Positions 5,698-51,255 of a DNA stretch of 53,888 bases are shown here, piece after piece. The notes below the pieces were generated by a model. It was not told the origin of the DNA and made no database searches. It worked only from the letters and a program-made list of their open reading frames with translations. Both the position numbers and the translations under genes were made by a program. The DNA is from a virus, in the IMG/VR virus record IMGVR_UViG_3300031578_000046, positions 1 to 53,888 of that record; one strand, 5' to 3'. Positions within the stretch are counted from its first letter, which is position 1, and the number at the start of each line of letters is the position of its first letter.

Positions 5698-5706
5698 AAT
5701 TACGTT

Positions 5707-5834
5707 GCCTAACAATAAATATAGCAAATAGCCAAGTTAGGCGTGCATTTGTCACTATCTGCGTGTTTATAATCATTTTACTGTATTCAAAGTTTGTGCT
5801 ATTTATGGCTACTTGCCATATTCTCAACGTTAGC
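5707..5834 (-). repeat. attC-like site 2
   Basis: 128 bp. Left half begins GCTAACGTTG with arm ATATGGCAAGTAGCCA. Right arm TTGGCTATTTGCTATATT ends in core GTTAGGC. It is nearly identical to site 8 at 8618-8746, which follows an unrelated cassette. An ATG in the interior opens a frame through the right arm. Confidence 0.88.
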
Positions 5835-5857
5835 AAACATTAAAACGATTTGCTAAC
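5829..5857 (-). repeat. Empty mini-cassette
   Basis: Only 29 bp lie between right core GTTAGC and left core GCTAAC. The sequence is the start (GTTAGCAAATCGTTTTA) and end (AATGTTTGCTAAC) of the cassette at 12240-12474 joined together. It is therefore a deletion remnant of a gene cassette. Confidence 0.75.
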
Positions 5858-7054: not shown

Positions 7055-7081
7055 ATATTATGTGATTTTTTTAATTATACG

Positions 7082-7112
7082 TAAATATAGTTATTATGTT
7101 TCTAATAAACAA
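7082..7112 (-). promoter_or_regulatory. Bacteroidota-type promoter for genes 7054-6548
   Basis: On the minus strand TTG (7112-7110), 20 bases, then TATATTTA (7089-7082), one base from the TAnnTTTG -7 consensus. It sits 28 bases before the ATG at 7054. Confidence 0.6.
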
Positions 7113-7220
7113 GAATTATAGTGTTTATTTTTCTATTTTAATTAAAATATTTTTGCCATCACACAAAAAATAATAAAATTACCTTTCTTCGTAGCGTGCT
7201 AAGTGGCTGATAATGCGCCA

Positions 7221-8607: not shown

Positions 8608-8617
8608 AAACCACTGT

Positions 8618-8746
8618 GCCTAACAATAAATATAGCAAATAGCCAAGTTAGGCTTGTATTTGTCACTATTTGCATGTTTATAATCATTTTACTGTATTCA
8701 AAGTTTTGTGCTATTTATGGCTACTTGCCATATTATCAACATTAGC
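8618..8746 (-). repeat. attC-like site 8, duplicate of site 2
   Basis: 129 bp, nearly identical to 5707-5834 although the flanking genes are unrelated. Core GTTAGGC lies at the right end on the gene strand, and the left core has decayed to GCTAAT. Confidence 0.88.
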
Positions 8747-8748
8747 AA

Positions 8749-9000
8749 CTATAAATTGCCTTCAATAAATCTATCTACGTGTCTTTCTGGTATGTACAGG
8801 TGCATTTCCTCGTCCTCATTAATCCATTCACGAAAGGCAATTAACAGTTCCCTTCGGTTGCTAACAACGGGTATAGCAAATAATTTTACTATCTTTTCTG
8901 TGTAATTGTTAATACTTTCTTGTATTTCACCAATTGTATTATCTCTCTCGGTAATCTGATTCTCAAATTCAATTAATAATTTTTTTACTTCTTTTTTCAT
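8749..9000 (-). CDS. Chimeric helical cassette protein
   Basis: 83 aa. Residues 1-45 form a coiled-coil-like helix (LLIEFENQITERDNTIGEIQ) encoded between the arms of site 9. At about residue 46 the core GTTAGC encodes Val-Ser, after which the body begins NRRELLIAFREWINEDEE. Both halves are mostly helical and acidic. No known family. The stop TAG precedes the decayed core GCTAATG by three bases. Confidence 0.72.
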   Translation of the reverse strand: MKKEVKKLLIEFENQITERDNTIGEIQESINNYTEKIVKLFAIPVVSNRRELLIAFREWINEDEEMHLYIPERHVDRFIEGNL

Positions 9001-10118: not shown

Positions 10119-10286
10119 AAAAAAAGAACCCCTCCCTAAAAAATAATTATTACTTCCGTGTTTCAAATGTAGGTAAGTGATTAAACGCCAGTGTATAACA
10201 ACGCATAAAAATAAAAGCCTTTGGAAGCTTATTATTTCAAATTAACGTTGTAGTGTCGGCTTCAATTCTTATGCAAACCGTTAGGT
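10119..10286 (-). repeat. attC-like site 11 plus flank, duplicated at 51089-51255
   Basis: The site proper is 10195-10286, from ACCTAACGG with arm GCATAAGAATTGAAGCC to arm GGCTTTTATTTTTATGC and core GTTGTTA. About 76 further bases after the core are shared with 51089-51165. Past that point the two copies diverge into unrelated genes. Confidence 0.88.
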
Positions 10287-10496
10287 TTCATTTGCCACCG
10301 CCACACGGTTATCAGACTCCCACGCCTCAATTGCAAAATGCTGTGACCGTATGTAGTTTTCATGACTACGATAGCCACATTTAGAACATTCAAGCCTAAA
10401 AGCAACACCGTTAAACGAACTGCCATTGTCTCCACATTCTTTGTCTATTTCTGCTTCTCCTCCGCATTTTTTACATGGTATTTTTTCTGTACTCAT
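10281..10496 (-). CDS. Lar-like zinc-ribbon protein (possible restriction alleviation)
   Basis: 71 aa from the ATG at 10496 (MSTEKIPCKK). IPCKKCGGEAEI, a later ECSKCGYRS and the ending FAIEAWESDNR follow the Lar/PF14354 pattern (CPFCGG ... C-x2-CG ... A-EAWN-R). Lar of phage Rac alleviates type I restriction, but most family members are untested. It is carried in a single-gene cassette; the stop TAA is in core CCTAAC. Confidence 0.8.
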   Translation of the reverse strand: MSTEKIPCKKCGGEAEIDKECGDNGSSFNGVAFRLECSKCGYRSHENYIRSQHFAIEAWESDNRVAVANET

Positions 10497-10529
10497 AATC
10501 TTGTTTTTACCCCACCGCACAAAACGAAA

Positions 10530-10658
10530 ACCTAACAATTTATATATTGCAAATTTTTTAGTAATTGTAGGTGAGTGGTTATTAATTTATTTTATCTCTA
10601 ATTGTTAATTTATCTCATTCTGGTTGCAAAATTCGACAACATATAAGTTGCCGTTAGC
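10530..10658 (-). repeat. attC-like site 12
   Basis: 129 bp. GCTAACGGCAACTTATATG pairs with TATATAAATT and core GTTAGGT. Confidence 0.8.
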
Positions 10659-17448: not shown

Positions 17449-17535
17449 CGCTCGTAAATTTTAAAGTTTGTATCTCGTATTATCTTTTCTGCAAATTTGG
17501 TAAAGCGCACTAATCATACAACAGTACCGTTATGC
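17167..17535 (-). repeat. attC-like site 18 with very long interior
   Basis: Left half GCATAACGGTACTGTTGTAT with GATTAGTGC pairs with right arm GCATTAATTATACAACTT and core GTTAGC. Span 369 bp, with 93 codons of the downstream gene inside. Confidence 0.8.
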
Positions 17536-17841
17536 CCCATTAGGCTTAACATCTTCTACTCTATATTTAAGTACTTCTGTTTCTGAAACACCGCAACACA
17601 CGCATCTAATTACATCTACTATTTCATCGTGCATTATTTCGGCTGCAGGGCTTTGTACTGGCACATCTACCCAAGTGTTACTACGTAGTCGCCCAATAAC
17701 TTTGTGTGTGTATTGTTCATTTTTACAGCCATGTCTTTTCTGCTCAATTATTCCGTAATCTCCAAAATCTAAAACGGGGCATAACAATGCATCATATTGC
17801 ATAGCCTCGTTGTTATCGGTAGTTTCGTTCTTTTTATTCAT
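17530..17841 (-). CDS. Chimeric cassette protein, zinc-like CVCCG motif
   Basis: 103 aa. The first 20 residues (MNKKNETTDNNEAMQYDALL) lie in site 19, and the core GTTATGC follows directly, opening the body CPVLDFGDYGIIEQKRHGC. Later VIRCVCCGVSETEVL contains closely spaced Cys. No named family. The stop TAA is in core CATAAC. Confidence 0.74.
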   Translation of the reverse strand: MNKKNETTDNNEAMQYDALLCPVLDFGDYGIIEQKRHGCKNEQYTHKVIGRLRSNTWVDVPVQSPAAEIMHDEIVDVIRCVCCGVSETEVLKYRVEDVKPNGA

Positions 17842-17908
17842 TTCAGTTTATATTTTAAGGTTTGTAATTCTAATCAAAAGGCTACGCAACATATGCTAGC
17901 CATTATCG
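17779..17908 (-). repeat. attC-like site 19 (start codon inside)
   Basis: 130 bp. GATAATGGCTAGCATATG with TTGCGTAGCC pairs with GGCTATGCAATATGATG and core GTTATGC. Confidence 0.84.
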
Positions 17909-17913
17909 GCAAC

Positions 17914-18624
17914 CTAAAAAGACAGCGTACCTTGTTTGATACTTTCTGAAATTCGTTTGATTGCCTTGTCAATATATTCTTTGTCGATTTCACACGCTGT
18001 TAAGTGTAAATTCATTTTATCTAATCGGTTTGCTTTATCAACTGCCAAAGCTATTGAGCCGCTCCCGAAATGGGTATCTAATATCTTCATTCCTTCGGTT
18101 GCGTAGTTTTTTAAAGTATAACTATACAAACATATTGGTTTTTGTGTGGGATGGAACGTGCCCCCTTCACGCACTAAAACAAGTGGATTTTTAGTATATT
18201 CACGCAAAGCCCTATTAAATGAAGTGTAAGCAAGTTCAGCATCGGAACTGCTAAAATTACCACGGTCTTTTCTCCATATAATCCAGCCCATCGAAGGCTT
18301 TAAATATTCCACCATATAGTTAGCTCCCCAAATTATTTGGTTTTTGCTTACTCTGTATAATTCTTTAAAGTAATCTTCTGTTGGTATGTTTGTATCCCAG
18401 CCTTTAAATTCGTGGGCTTTTCTTCCTCCGTGGCTTCCGCTTGTTTGTTTTGCACCATCATACCCAATCCCATAAGGTGGGTCAACAATAGCCAAATCAA
18501 AGTATTTATCAGGGTATTGCTTCATAATTTCCATACAATCAGCGTGGAAAAGAGAAAGAAAAGGCAGCCGATAACACTCGCTATATGCAATTTGGGGGTC
18601 GGTGGTATTCGTAAGTTCGTTCAT
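17914..18624 (-). CDS. DNA methyltransferase, beta class (N4/N6)
   Basis: 236 aa. DPPYGIG (48-54, catalytic motif IV) precedes HPTQKP and ILDTHFGSGSIALA (SAM motif I), the beta-class order. It methylates DNA, adenine N6 or cytosine N4. No restriction enzyme is adjacent, so it is probably an orphan that protects phage DNA or regulates. The first 16 residues (ending IAYSE) come from within attC-like site 20; the body starts at the Cys-Tyr (TGTTAT) core and continues RLPFLSLFHADCMEIM. Confidence 0.93.
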   Translation of the reverse strand: MNELTNTTDPQIAYSECYRLPFLSLFHADCMEIMKQYPDKYFDLAIVDPPYGIGYDGAKQTSGSHGGRKAHEFKGWDTNIPTEDYFKELYRVSKNQIIWGANYMVEYLKPSMGWIIWRKDRGNFSSSDAELAYTSFNRALREYTKNPLVLVREGGTFHPTQKPICLYSYTLKNYATEGMKILDTHFGSGSIALAVDKANRLDKMNLHLTACEIDKEYIDKAIKRISESIKQGTLSF

Positions 18625-18696
18625 TTAATTTACATTTGTTAAGTTTGATAGTGCAGTGCTTTTAATTCCCAAACTGCACATAGCGGAAACGTTAGC
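18569..18696 (-). repeat. attC-like site 20 (start codon inside)
   Basis: 128 bp, 5' end of island 2. GCTAACGTTTCCGCTATGTG with CAGTTTGGG pairs with CCCCAAATTGCATATAGC and core GTTATCG. Confidence 0.86.
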
Positions 18697-18730
18697 AATA
18701 ATTAGCCATCACACGCCATTCATTCTACTT

Positions 18731-18849: not shown

Positions 18850-19188
18850 TTATAAATTGAAAGGTATGTTATTTTTCTCTAAATTCAAAATTATTTTGTT
18901 AAAAATAGCCTCATCAATTAATAAAATATCCATCATTACATCATTGAATAATGGTAATATTTCAATTGCATCTGTTATATTATTATCAAAAATATCATGA
19001 CATTGGTGATGTGCTAACCCTGTATTCAAATCCATACATTCATATTCTTTACTCTCAGATATTCTAATCTTATGGGCTAATTGACCATGACTTCCAATAA
19101 AATGGCCGCAAAAAATACAATAAGGCTCTTTTTCTATTAGCCACTTTTTACGTTTTGATTTCCAGTTTTTTATCTGATTATTTGTCAT
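18850..19188 (-). CDS. HNH/NinG-like endonuclease
   Basis: 112 aa. PYCIFCGHFIGSHGQLAHKI then LAHHQCHDIFDNN gives C-x2-C ... H ... H-x2-C-H, an HNH-type beta-beta-metal zinc nuclease arrangement also seen in NinG/Rap-like Holliday junction nucleases. It follows a DUF1367-like gene by one-base overlap, a pairing common in phages. Probable recombination role. Confidence 0.8.
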   Translation of the reverse strand: MTNNQIKNWKSKRKKWLIEKEPYCIFCGHFIGSHGQLAHKIRISESKEYECMDLNTGLAHHQCHDIFDNNITDAIEILPLFNDVMMDILLIDEAIFNKIILNLEKNNIPFNL

Positions 19189-22686: not shown

Positions 22687-22736
22687 AGCTGTTTGTTTAA
22701 TTATATTTAAAGATAATTAATAATTTTTATAAAATA

Positions 22737-22871
22737 TATGACTTTTATCATGTTTTGTTATTTATAATCATTATTAATAATTATCAGTTACAAGTTTTAA
22801 ACAAATTAATAAGCGATCTATCAGTCATTTATATTTAGTTTAAAATTTTGAACTAACTTTATTCAATTGTT
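22737..22871 (-). repeat. Boundary repeat with deleted gene, copy 3
   Basis: 135 bp, about 97% identical to 24991-25125. It contains only the first and last codons of the gene at 4750-4980 (now MTDRSLINLFKTCN then stop) plus the island 3'-end element. Confidence 0.85.
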
Positions 22872-24913: not shown

Positions 24914-24990
24914 TTTGTAAAGTTTTTAGTTAATAATTATTTGTTTTATTAATTATAACGTCTAAATTACGTATAAGTTTTAATATATTA

Positions 24991-25125
24991 TATGACTTTT
25001 GTCATGTTTTGTTATTTATAACCATTATTAATAATTATCAGTTACAAGTTTTAAACAAATTAATAAGCGATCTATCAGTCATTTATATTTAGTTTAAATT
25101 TTTGAACTGACTTTATTCAATTGTT
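24991..25125 (-). repeat. Boundary repeat with deleted gene, copy 4
   Basis: Copy of 22737-22871 with about four differences, again directly downstream of an island on the gene strand. Confidence 0.85.
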
Positions 25126-51088: not shown

Positions 51089-51255
51089 GAAAATAACCCC
51101 TCCCTAAGAAAATAATTATTACTTTCGTGTTCCAAATGTAGGTAAGTGATTAAACGCCAGTGTATAACAACGCATAAAAATAAAAGCCTTTGGAAGCTTA
51201 TTATTTCAAATTAACGTTGTAGTGTCGGCTTCAATTCTTATGCAAACCGTTATGG
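51089..51255 (-). repeat. attC-like site 32 plus flank, duplicate of 10119-10286
   Basis: Site proper 51165-51255 (CATAACGG to GTTGTTA). Near-identical to site 11 and to the first 76 bases of its cassette. Confidence 0.88.

Follow-up and report, generated by a model that had tools for sequence, protein, structure and literature searches.

Phage orphan methylases are thought to shield DNA from restriction, and it remains a question how phages match the many specificities of their hosts. In the locus described here, a methylase gene of a phage begins inside a putative recombination site. The comparisons set out below indicate that the gene is probably the cargo of an integron-type cassette in reverse orientation, within a phage attC cluster that has no integrase; this orphan beta-class methylase is started within the cassette's own attC-like site and has an exchangeable centre.

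The methylase gene and its neighbours

The window, i.e., the whole stretch of DNA that was analysed, is the 53,888-base IMG/VR virus record IMGVR_UViG_3300031578_000046. It has a terminal repeat of 177 bases, and terminase and portal genes identify it as a tailed phage. The terminase (252-1550) is nearest (about 41%) to those of Proteobacteria phages, and the relatives of the methylase are found mostly in Bacteroidota phages. A promoter scan was uninformative, with 12 hits and 7.5 expected.

The methylase ORF (Table 1) matched the Pfam family N6_N4_Mtase (PF01555) with 49.8 bits against a cut-off of 26.7 and was called MTase_II by PADLOC (1.5e-33). The catalytic DPPY (residues 48-51) and the AdoMet motif FGSGS (residues 186-190) are both intact and are invariant among the relatives that share its constant ends, termed here the shell. 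The layout, with DPPY near the N-terminus, the recognition region in the middle and FxGxG near the C-terminus, is the beta-class order. The AlphaFold model, built from 61 sequences, reached a pLDDT of 86 (it was used instead of a run with 11 sequences, which gave 55), and Foldseek matched it to CcrM, MboIIA and M.BceJIV. Judged by its sequence, the ORF is a complete beta-class DNA methyltransferase, as the initial annotation had proposed.

The proposal that no restriction enzyme is adjacent agrees with PADLOC, which recognised none in the neighbours tested, nor any partner nuclease of the kind that Res represents in type III restriction-modification; the backbone gene at 18850-19188 was not recognised as such an enzyme. 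The methylase had further been grouped with a Lar-like cassette as anti-restriction cargo. The idea rests mainly on the methylase and is weak for the Lar-like ORF, which scored 21.6 bits against a Pfam cut-off of 28.6 and matched PHROG 599 at E 4e-6. Near-identical (about 90-96%) distant copies are present within the window at 10196-10283 and 51165-51252 (both attC-like sites), at 5706-5843 and 8617-8755 (5710-5832 being an attC-like site), and at 22724-22871 and 24978-25125.

Table 1. Features of the methylase cassette and its surroundings, in window positions.
Feature	Position	Strand	Basis or remark
Cassette unit between two predicted crossovers, starting TTATCGGCAACC and ending with the G of GTTAGCA	17903-18691	+ (attC top strand)	divergence of relatives at both ends
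3' border past the stop codon (GTTGCCGATAA)	17903-17913	-	common to other cassettes, including those with unrelated genes
Beta-class DNA methyltransferase, complete, 236 aa	17914-18624	-	Pfam, PADLOC, AlphaFold/Foldseek
C shell, residues 183-236 (DTHFGSGS..KQGTLSF)	17917-18078	-	97.4% aa, 92.0% DNA, 71% fourfold sites
Exchangeable centre, residues 53-182, presumed target recognition region	18079-18468	-	43% aa between shell genes; AU test
N shell, residues 17-52 (CYRLPFLS..DPPYG)	18469-18576	-	94.2% aa, 90.6% DNA, 77% fourfold sites
attC-like site: R'' CGATAAC, 18-bp arms, 71-nt loop, R' GTTAGCA	18569-18697	+	top scan score, minus-strand fold, covarying arms in relatives
R'' core CGATAAC; complement GTTATCG in frame within C17-Y18-R19	18569-18575	+	
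Leader, residues 1-16 (MNELTNTTDPQIAYSE), from the inner half of the site	18577-18624	-	residues 1-11 predicted disordered
R' core GTTAGCA, outer crossover	18691-18697	+	bases past G/TT differ between relatives
Next attC-like site, R' mutated to ATTATCG	17779-17908	+	missed by the scan, which required GTTA
ORF of the neighbouring cassette, starting inside site 17779-17908	17530-17841	-	PHROG 18349 of unknown function
Backbone gene on the other side	18850-19188	-	matches no database family; CxxC/H residues, HNH-like on inspection by eye
Lar-like ORF between attC-like sites 10196-10283 and 10533-10656	10281-10538		

The site in which the gene begins, and the cassette borders

Sites were sought with the pattern TAAC..arm..arm..GTTA and counted at a score of at least 12, which gave nine in the window and none or one in each of four first-order Markov shuffles; the methylase site has the highest score of the window (17.5). 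The folding energy of this site by itself is unremarkable (z -1.07), so that the case for it rests on comparison. Among 59 distinct arm pairs, taken from related contigs as well as from the window, the two arms of one site pair at 16.1 of 17 positions and arms of different sites at 7.6, a contrast that is partly built in, since sites were chosen by arm complementarity. In the homologous methylase sites (five distinct arm pairs) the own arms pair at 15-17 of 17 positions, against 8.4 when crossed. The window site thus has the imperfect inverted repeat, the AAC..GTT cores and the pairing arms of an integron cassette site. Since only 3 of 66 related sites have an R' box fitting GTTRRRY, and the GTTAGCA of the window does not fit it, the sites are named attC-like and not textbook attC. 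The 67 attC-like sites of the window and the loci fall into two size classes, of about 124 and about 87 bases, with a constant difference in the spacer between the arms.

That the gene begins in such a site and runs through its core into the catalytic body was confirmed, as codons 17-19 pass in frame through GTTATCG. The ATG sits in the loop of the site, immediately 3' of an in-frame TAA, and the next in-frame ATG is M31; because of this TAA, and because M31 falls past the conserved first strand, the start encoded by the site is needed. Other methylases likewise begin in such sites, with other leaders. An ATG within the site opens an ORF reaching at least 45 codons past it in 29 of 63 cases in the gene direction and in 0 of 58 in the opposite one; positions drawn at random on the same strand give 36%, so the excess is modest and only the strand asymmetry is informative. 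Most loci of the 63-site set were fetched via methylases, which biases the methylase share among the cargo. Locus L059 has, at 1918-2042 on its minus strand, a site in which a body resembling a C5 cytosine methylase by eye starts, in frame with the same leader as in L018. In this arrangement recombination site and coding sequence use the same bases: the arms covary and yet stay translated.

The methylase block is shared exactly with 12 contigs besides the window, and nearly exactly with more. Two points mark exactly where the relatives part: just past GATAAC, where the gene has its 3' end, and just ahead of TAACG, with which the site ends on its outer side; the 400-nt flanks outside these borders are unrelated between contigs, and so is the sequence beyond the terminal GTTGCCGATAAC that follows the stop codon. 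The window (L001) and L017 have 96% identity in the site and only background identity (57%) over the 100 bases beyond the outer core. The view of the methylase as a mobile cassette is supported by cassettes of this type in other viral contigs, where the flanks are unrelated and similarity ends at both cores. Such borders at the core, and the same cassette in unrelated contexts, are what characterises integron cassettes.

The direction of the cassette requires more attention. In ordinary integron cassettes the ORF reads toward its attC; here the ORF has the site at its 5' end. The initial annotation placed the start of the gene in an attC-like site, and this site is real. In a classical orientation the site would belong to an upstream cassette, the methylase would be the next cassette and the fused leader an accident that changes with each insertion. 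Similar sites do precede different bodies, as in L018 and L059 (90% identical, before a beta methylase and the C5-like body), in L002 and L115, and twice in L023. Against this reading, a host that makes many cassettes usually gives them similar sites whatever their cargo, as with the Vibrio repeats; the site stays with the methylase shell while everything beyond the outer core changes, and several shell methylases close their array without the downstream site that a classical cassette must have: in L010, L014, L018 and L020 an attC-like site precedes the methylase, and behind it there is only a core. The classical orientation was rejected on this linkage and on these array ends, and we regard it as improbable. 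The TAACA..CGTTA asymmetry of the sites also counts for the reversed orientation. Because the site is linked to the gene, the flanks are unrelated and four arrays end without a downstream site, the mobile unit is to be read from these sequences as the 5' site plus the methylase, reversed with respect to ordinary integron cassettes; the site accordingly belongs to the methylase's own cassette.

The shell methylases of L022, L025 and L044 are without the outer half of the site (in L044 the gene is also truncated), so the cores are not indispensable to the gene. The contig L064, which holds the L017 cassette, has at 7059-7146 another site (89%) and cassette start in common with the window (51165-51252), hinting at a common cassette pool for the two. 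In L072 (3134-3257 and 3923-4047), neighbouring cassettes of one array carry two methylases of different shells.

Constant ends and an exchangeable centre

A point absent from the initial annotation is that the methylase is chimeric. In an alignment of 11 shell genes, a group that was defined by its ends, the two shell segments are nearly constant (Table 1), and the 130-residue centre between them has 43% amino acid and 55% DNA identity. At fourfold sites the ends agree at 77 and 71% and the centre at 44.5%, which argues that the ends share a more recent ancestry than the centre, beyond what constraint on the protein would give.

The window centre is 85% identical to that of L005, an ordinary phage methylase whose ends differ and whose start lies in no attC-like site. 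It is 83% identical to the centres of L016, L015 and L008, among which L016 is a methylase of the cassette kind but with another shell, and 40-50% identical to those of other shell genes. Similarly, the L014 centre is 92% identical to that of L080, which belongs to another shell and has ends of 54 and 67% identity. Breakpoints lie near residues 46-60 and 170-185. In the tree of the centre the shell label takes 10 changes for 11 genes, and a single clade is rejected (AU p 4e-106), whereas in the tree of the ends it takes 3 changes; since the group was defined by its ends, it is the incongruence of the trees, and not the clustering of the ends, that is informative.

It might be argued that a single lineage without recombination would show the same pattern if its ends were under strong selection and its centre diverged fast, as the ends carry catalytic motifs that are conserved in all relatives. 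This is hardly credible: the window and L014 centres that match L005 and L080 so closely stand between ends of only 40-69% identity to those genes, and both the AU test and the fourfold sites speak against it. Divergence without recombination is refuted at least for L001 and L014, by trees and breakpoints. By these sequence comparisons the methylase is a chimera in which constant ends enclose a centre that was replaced repeatedly by recombination. The centre should set the DNA target; it has motif IV on one side and the AdoMet motifs on the other, and enzymes of this class are expected to have their recognition region there.

In 50,697 named phage records the best matches listed all start at residue 20-23 and lack the shell, and named phages and plasmids gave ordinary relatives only, without it. 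The exact shell pattern had no match in cellular genome contigs; an alignment search of cellular contigs found seven loci, one of them with the same C shell and border (L122, a 3.5-kb contig of a Bacteroidota bin).

Movement, role and comparison with known systems

No tyrosine recombinase (PF00589) was detected in the window or in 12 related contigs, most of which are fragments (the control was positive in 14 of 14). The array thus has no integron integrase nearby, which is what defines a CALIN, as far as the window and these 12 contigs go, since fragments may miss one elsewhere. The search for a true empty site gave distant relatives only. In the nearest one found, phage L156 (one neighbouring gene with 71% identity), the 10 kb examined contain no methylase and no attC-like sites. 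The same gene at the same place in a relative without cores, which would have spoken against a cassette, was thus not encountered there, and L156 is too distant to count as a true empty site.

With no integrase at hand, the hairpin sites could be another phage or host recombination repeat, or a regulatory one, and the cassettes could spread by homologous recombination alone. The deviation of the R' boxes from GTTRRRY agrees with this, and the constant ends could serve phage recombination as homology. However, the divergence at both ends coincides with the GTT core expected of integrons, and the arms, spacers and TAACA..CGTTA asymmetry match the attC layout. The attC sites of Polaribacter phage P12002L, moreover, have the same layout, one site lying 5' of a methylase gene and the other 5' of a Mom-like gene (in our rescan both lie outside coding regions), and one of the two sites of that cluster recombined with attI1 (PMC9892861). 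We give this alternative a minor share of the probability.

In the integron-type cassette that is preferred here, one end of the shell consists of the attC, the leader and the catalytic motif IV, and the other end of AdoMet motifs I-III with the terminal core. The comparison of contigs shows that the cassette moves as a unit bounded by the two cores. Incongruent trees and breakpoints show that its centre has been swapped many times, probably by homologous recombination at the conserved motifs, from other methylases including non-cassette phage genes. The cassette itself may be moved by a host integron integrase acting in trans, which is proposed because the window and its 12 related contigs are without a PF00589 recombinase, or by homologous recombination between co-infecting phages. 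Finally, the enzyme would methylate the phage DNA, so that a new centre may let the phage escape different host restriction enzymes. Phage orphan methylases can also have regulatory roles, and a role in regulating phage or host genes, or in DNA packaging, would be an alternative to restriction escape; as frequent exchange of a centre that bears the specificity would be more in keeping with an arms race than with a regulatory mark that stays fixed, we consider such a role rather unlikely here.

Taken further, the locus could be a two-level diversification platform, in which site-specific recombination spreads the cassette between phages and the constant ends, one of which is both attC-like site and gene start, serve as homology handles for loading any centre. 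This is put forward tentatively, at somewhat less than even confidence. If true, a cassette with separately exchangeable modules for mobility and specificity would directly answer how phages match many host specificities, and would let them change their protective mark. Shell methylases with different centres make the exchange model testable.

Virulent phages have been reported to carry integrase-less attC clusters (CALINs) with methylase cassettes, including the Bacteroidota phage P12002L with two methylases; attC x attI1 recombination was obtained for five of six phage sites tested, and protection from restriction was proposed (Qi et al., 2023; PMC9892861). The window resembles these phages in having a methylase cassette in an attC cluster without integrase. 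It differs from them in the methylase start inside the attC-like site, unreported there, and in the constant shell and exchanged centre, which are not described there. The modA phasevarion methylases of Haemophilus and Neisseria have conserved 5' and 3' ends (DPPY, FxGxG) and, between them, a recognition domain that varies strongly and is transferred en bloc, from other species as well (Gawthorne et al., 2012; PMC3311624). The window methylase likewise has conserved ends and a centre exchanged by recombination; unlike modA, a phase-variable type III Mod that is encoded in bacterial chromosomes and has a Res partner, it is short, an orphan, and carried by a phage in a cassette whose ends coincide with recombination sites. 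In class 1 integrons, ORF-11 in attI1 takes its translation signals from the site, and its frame crosses the crossover point (PMC8876359). ORF-11 is, however, a short peptide, acting by coupling and terminating at the first cassette, whereas in the window the cargo protein itself has its N-terminus encoded by the attC-like site. The adenine methylases of Flavobacterium, Cellulophaga and Tenacibaculum phages belong to the same family (about 50% identity over residues 23-234); their matches begin past the site-encoded leader and they have no shell, in contrast to the window methylase, which has both. In the limited literature searched, no report combined an attC-cluster methylase, constant ends with a variable centre and a frame across the crossover. 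Phage attC clusters with methylase cassettes are thus known from the literature, and the case of the window is a variant of them, with a swapped centre and a start encoded by the site.
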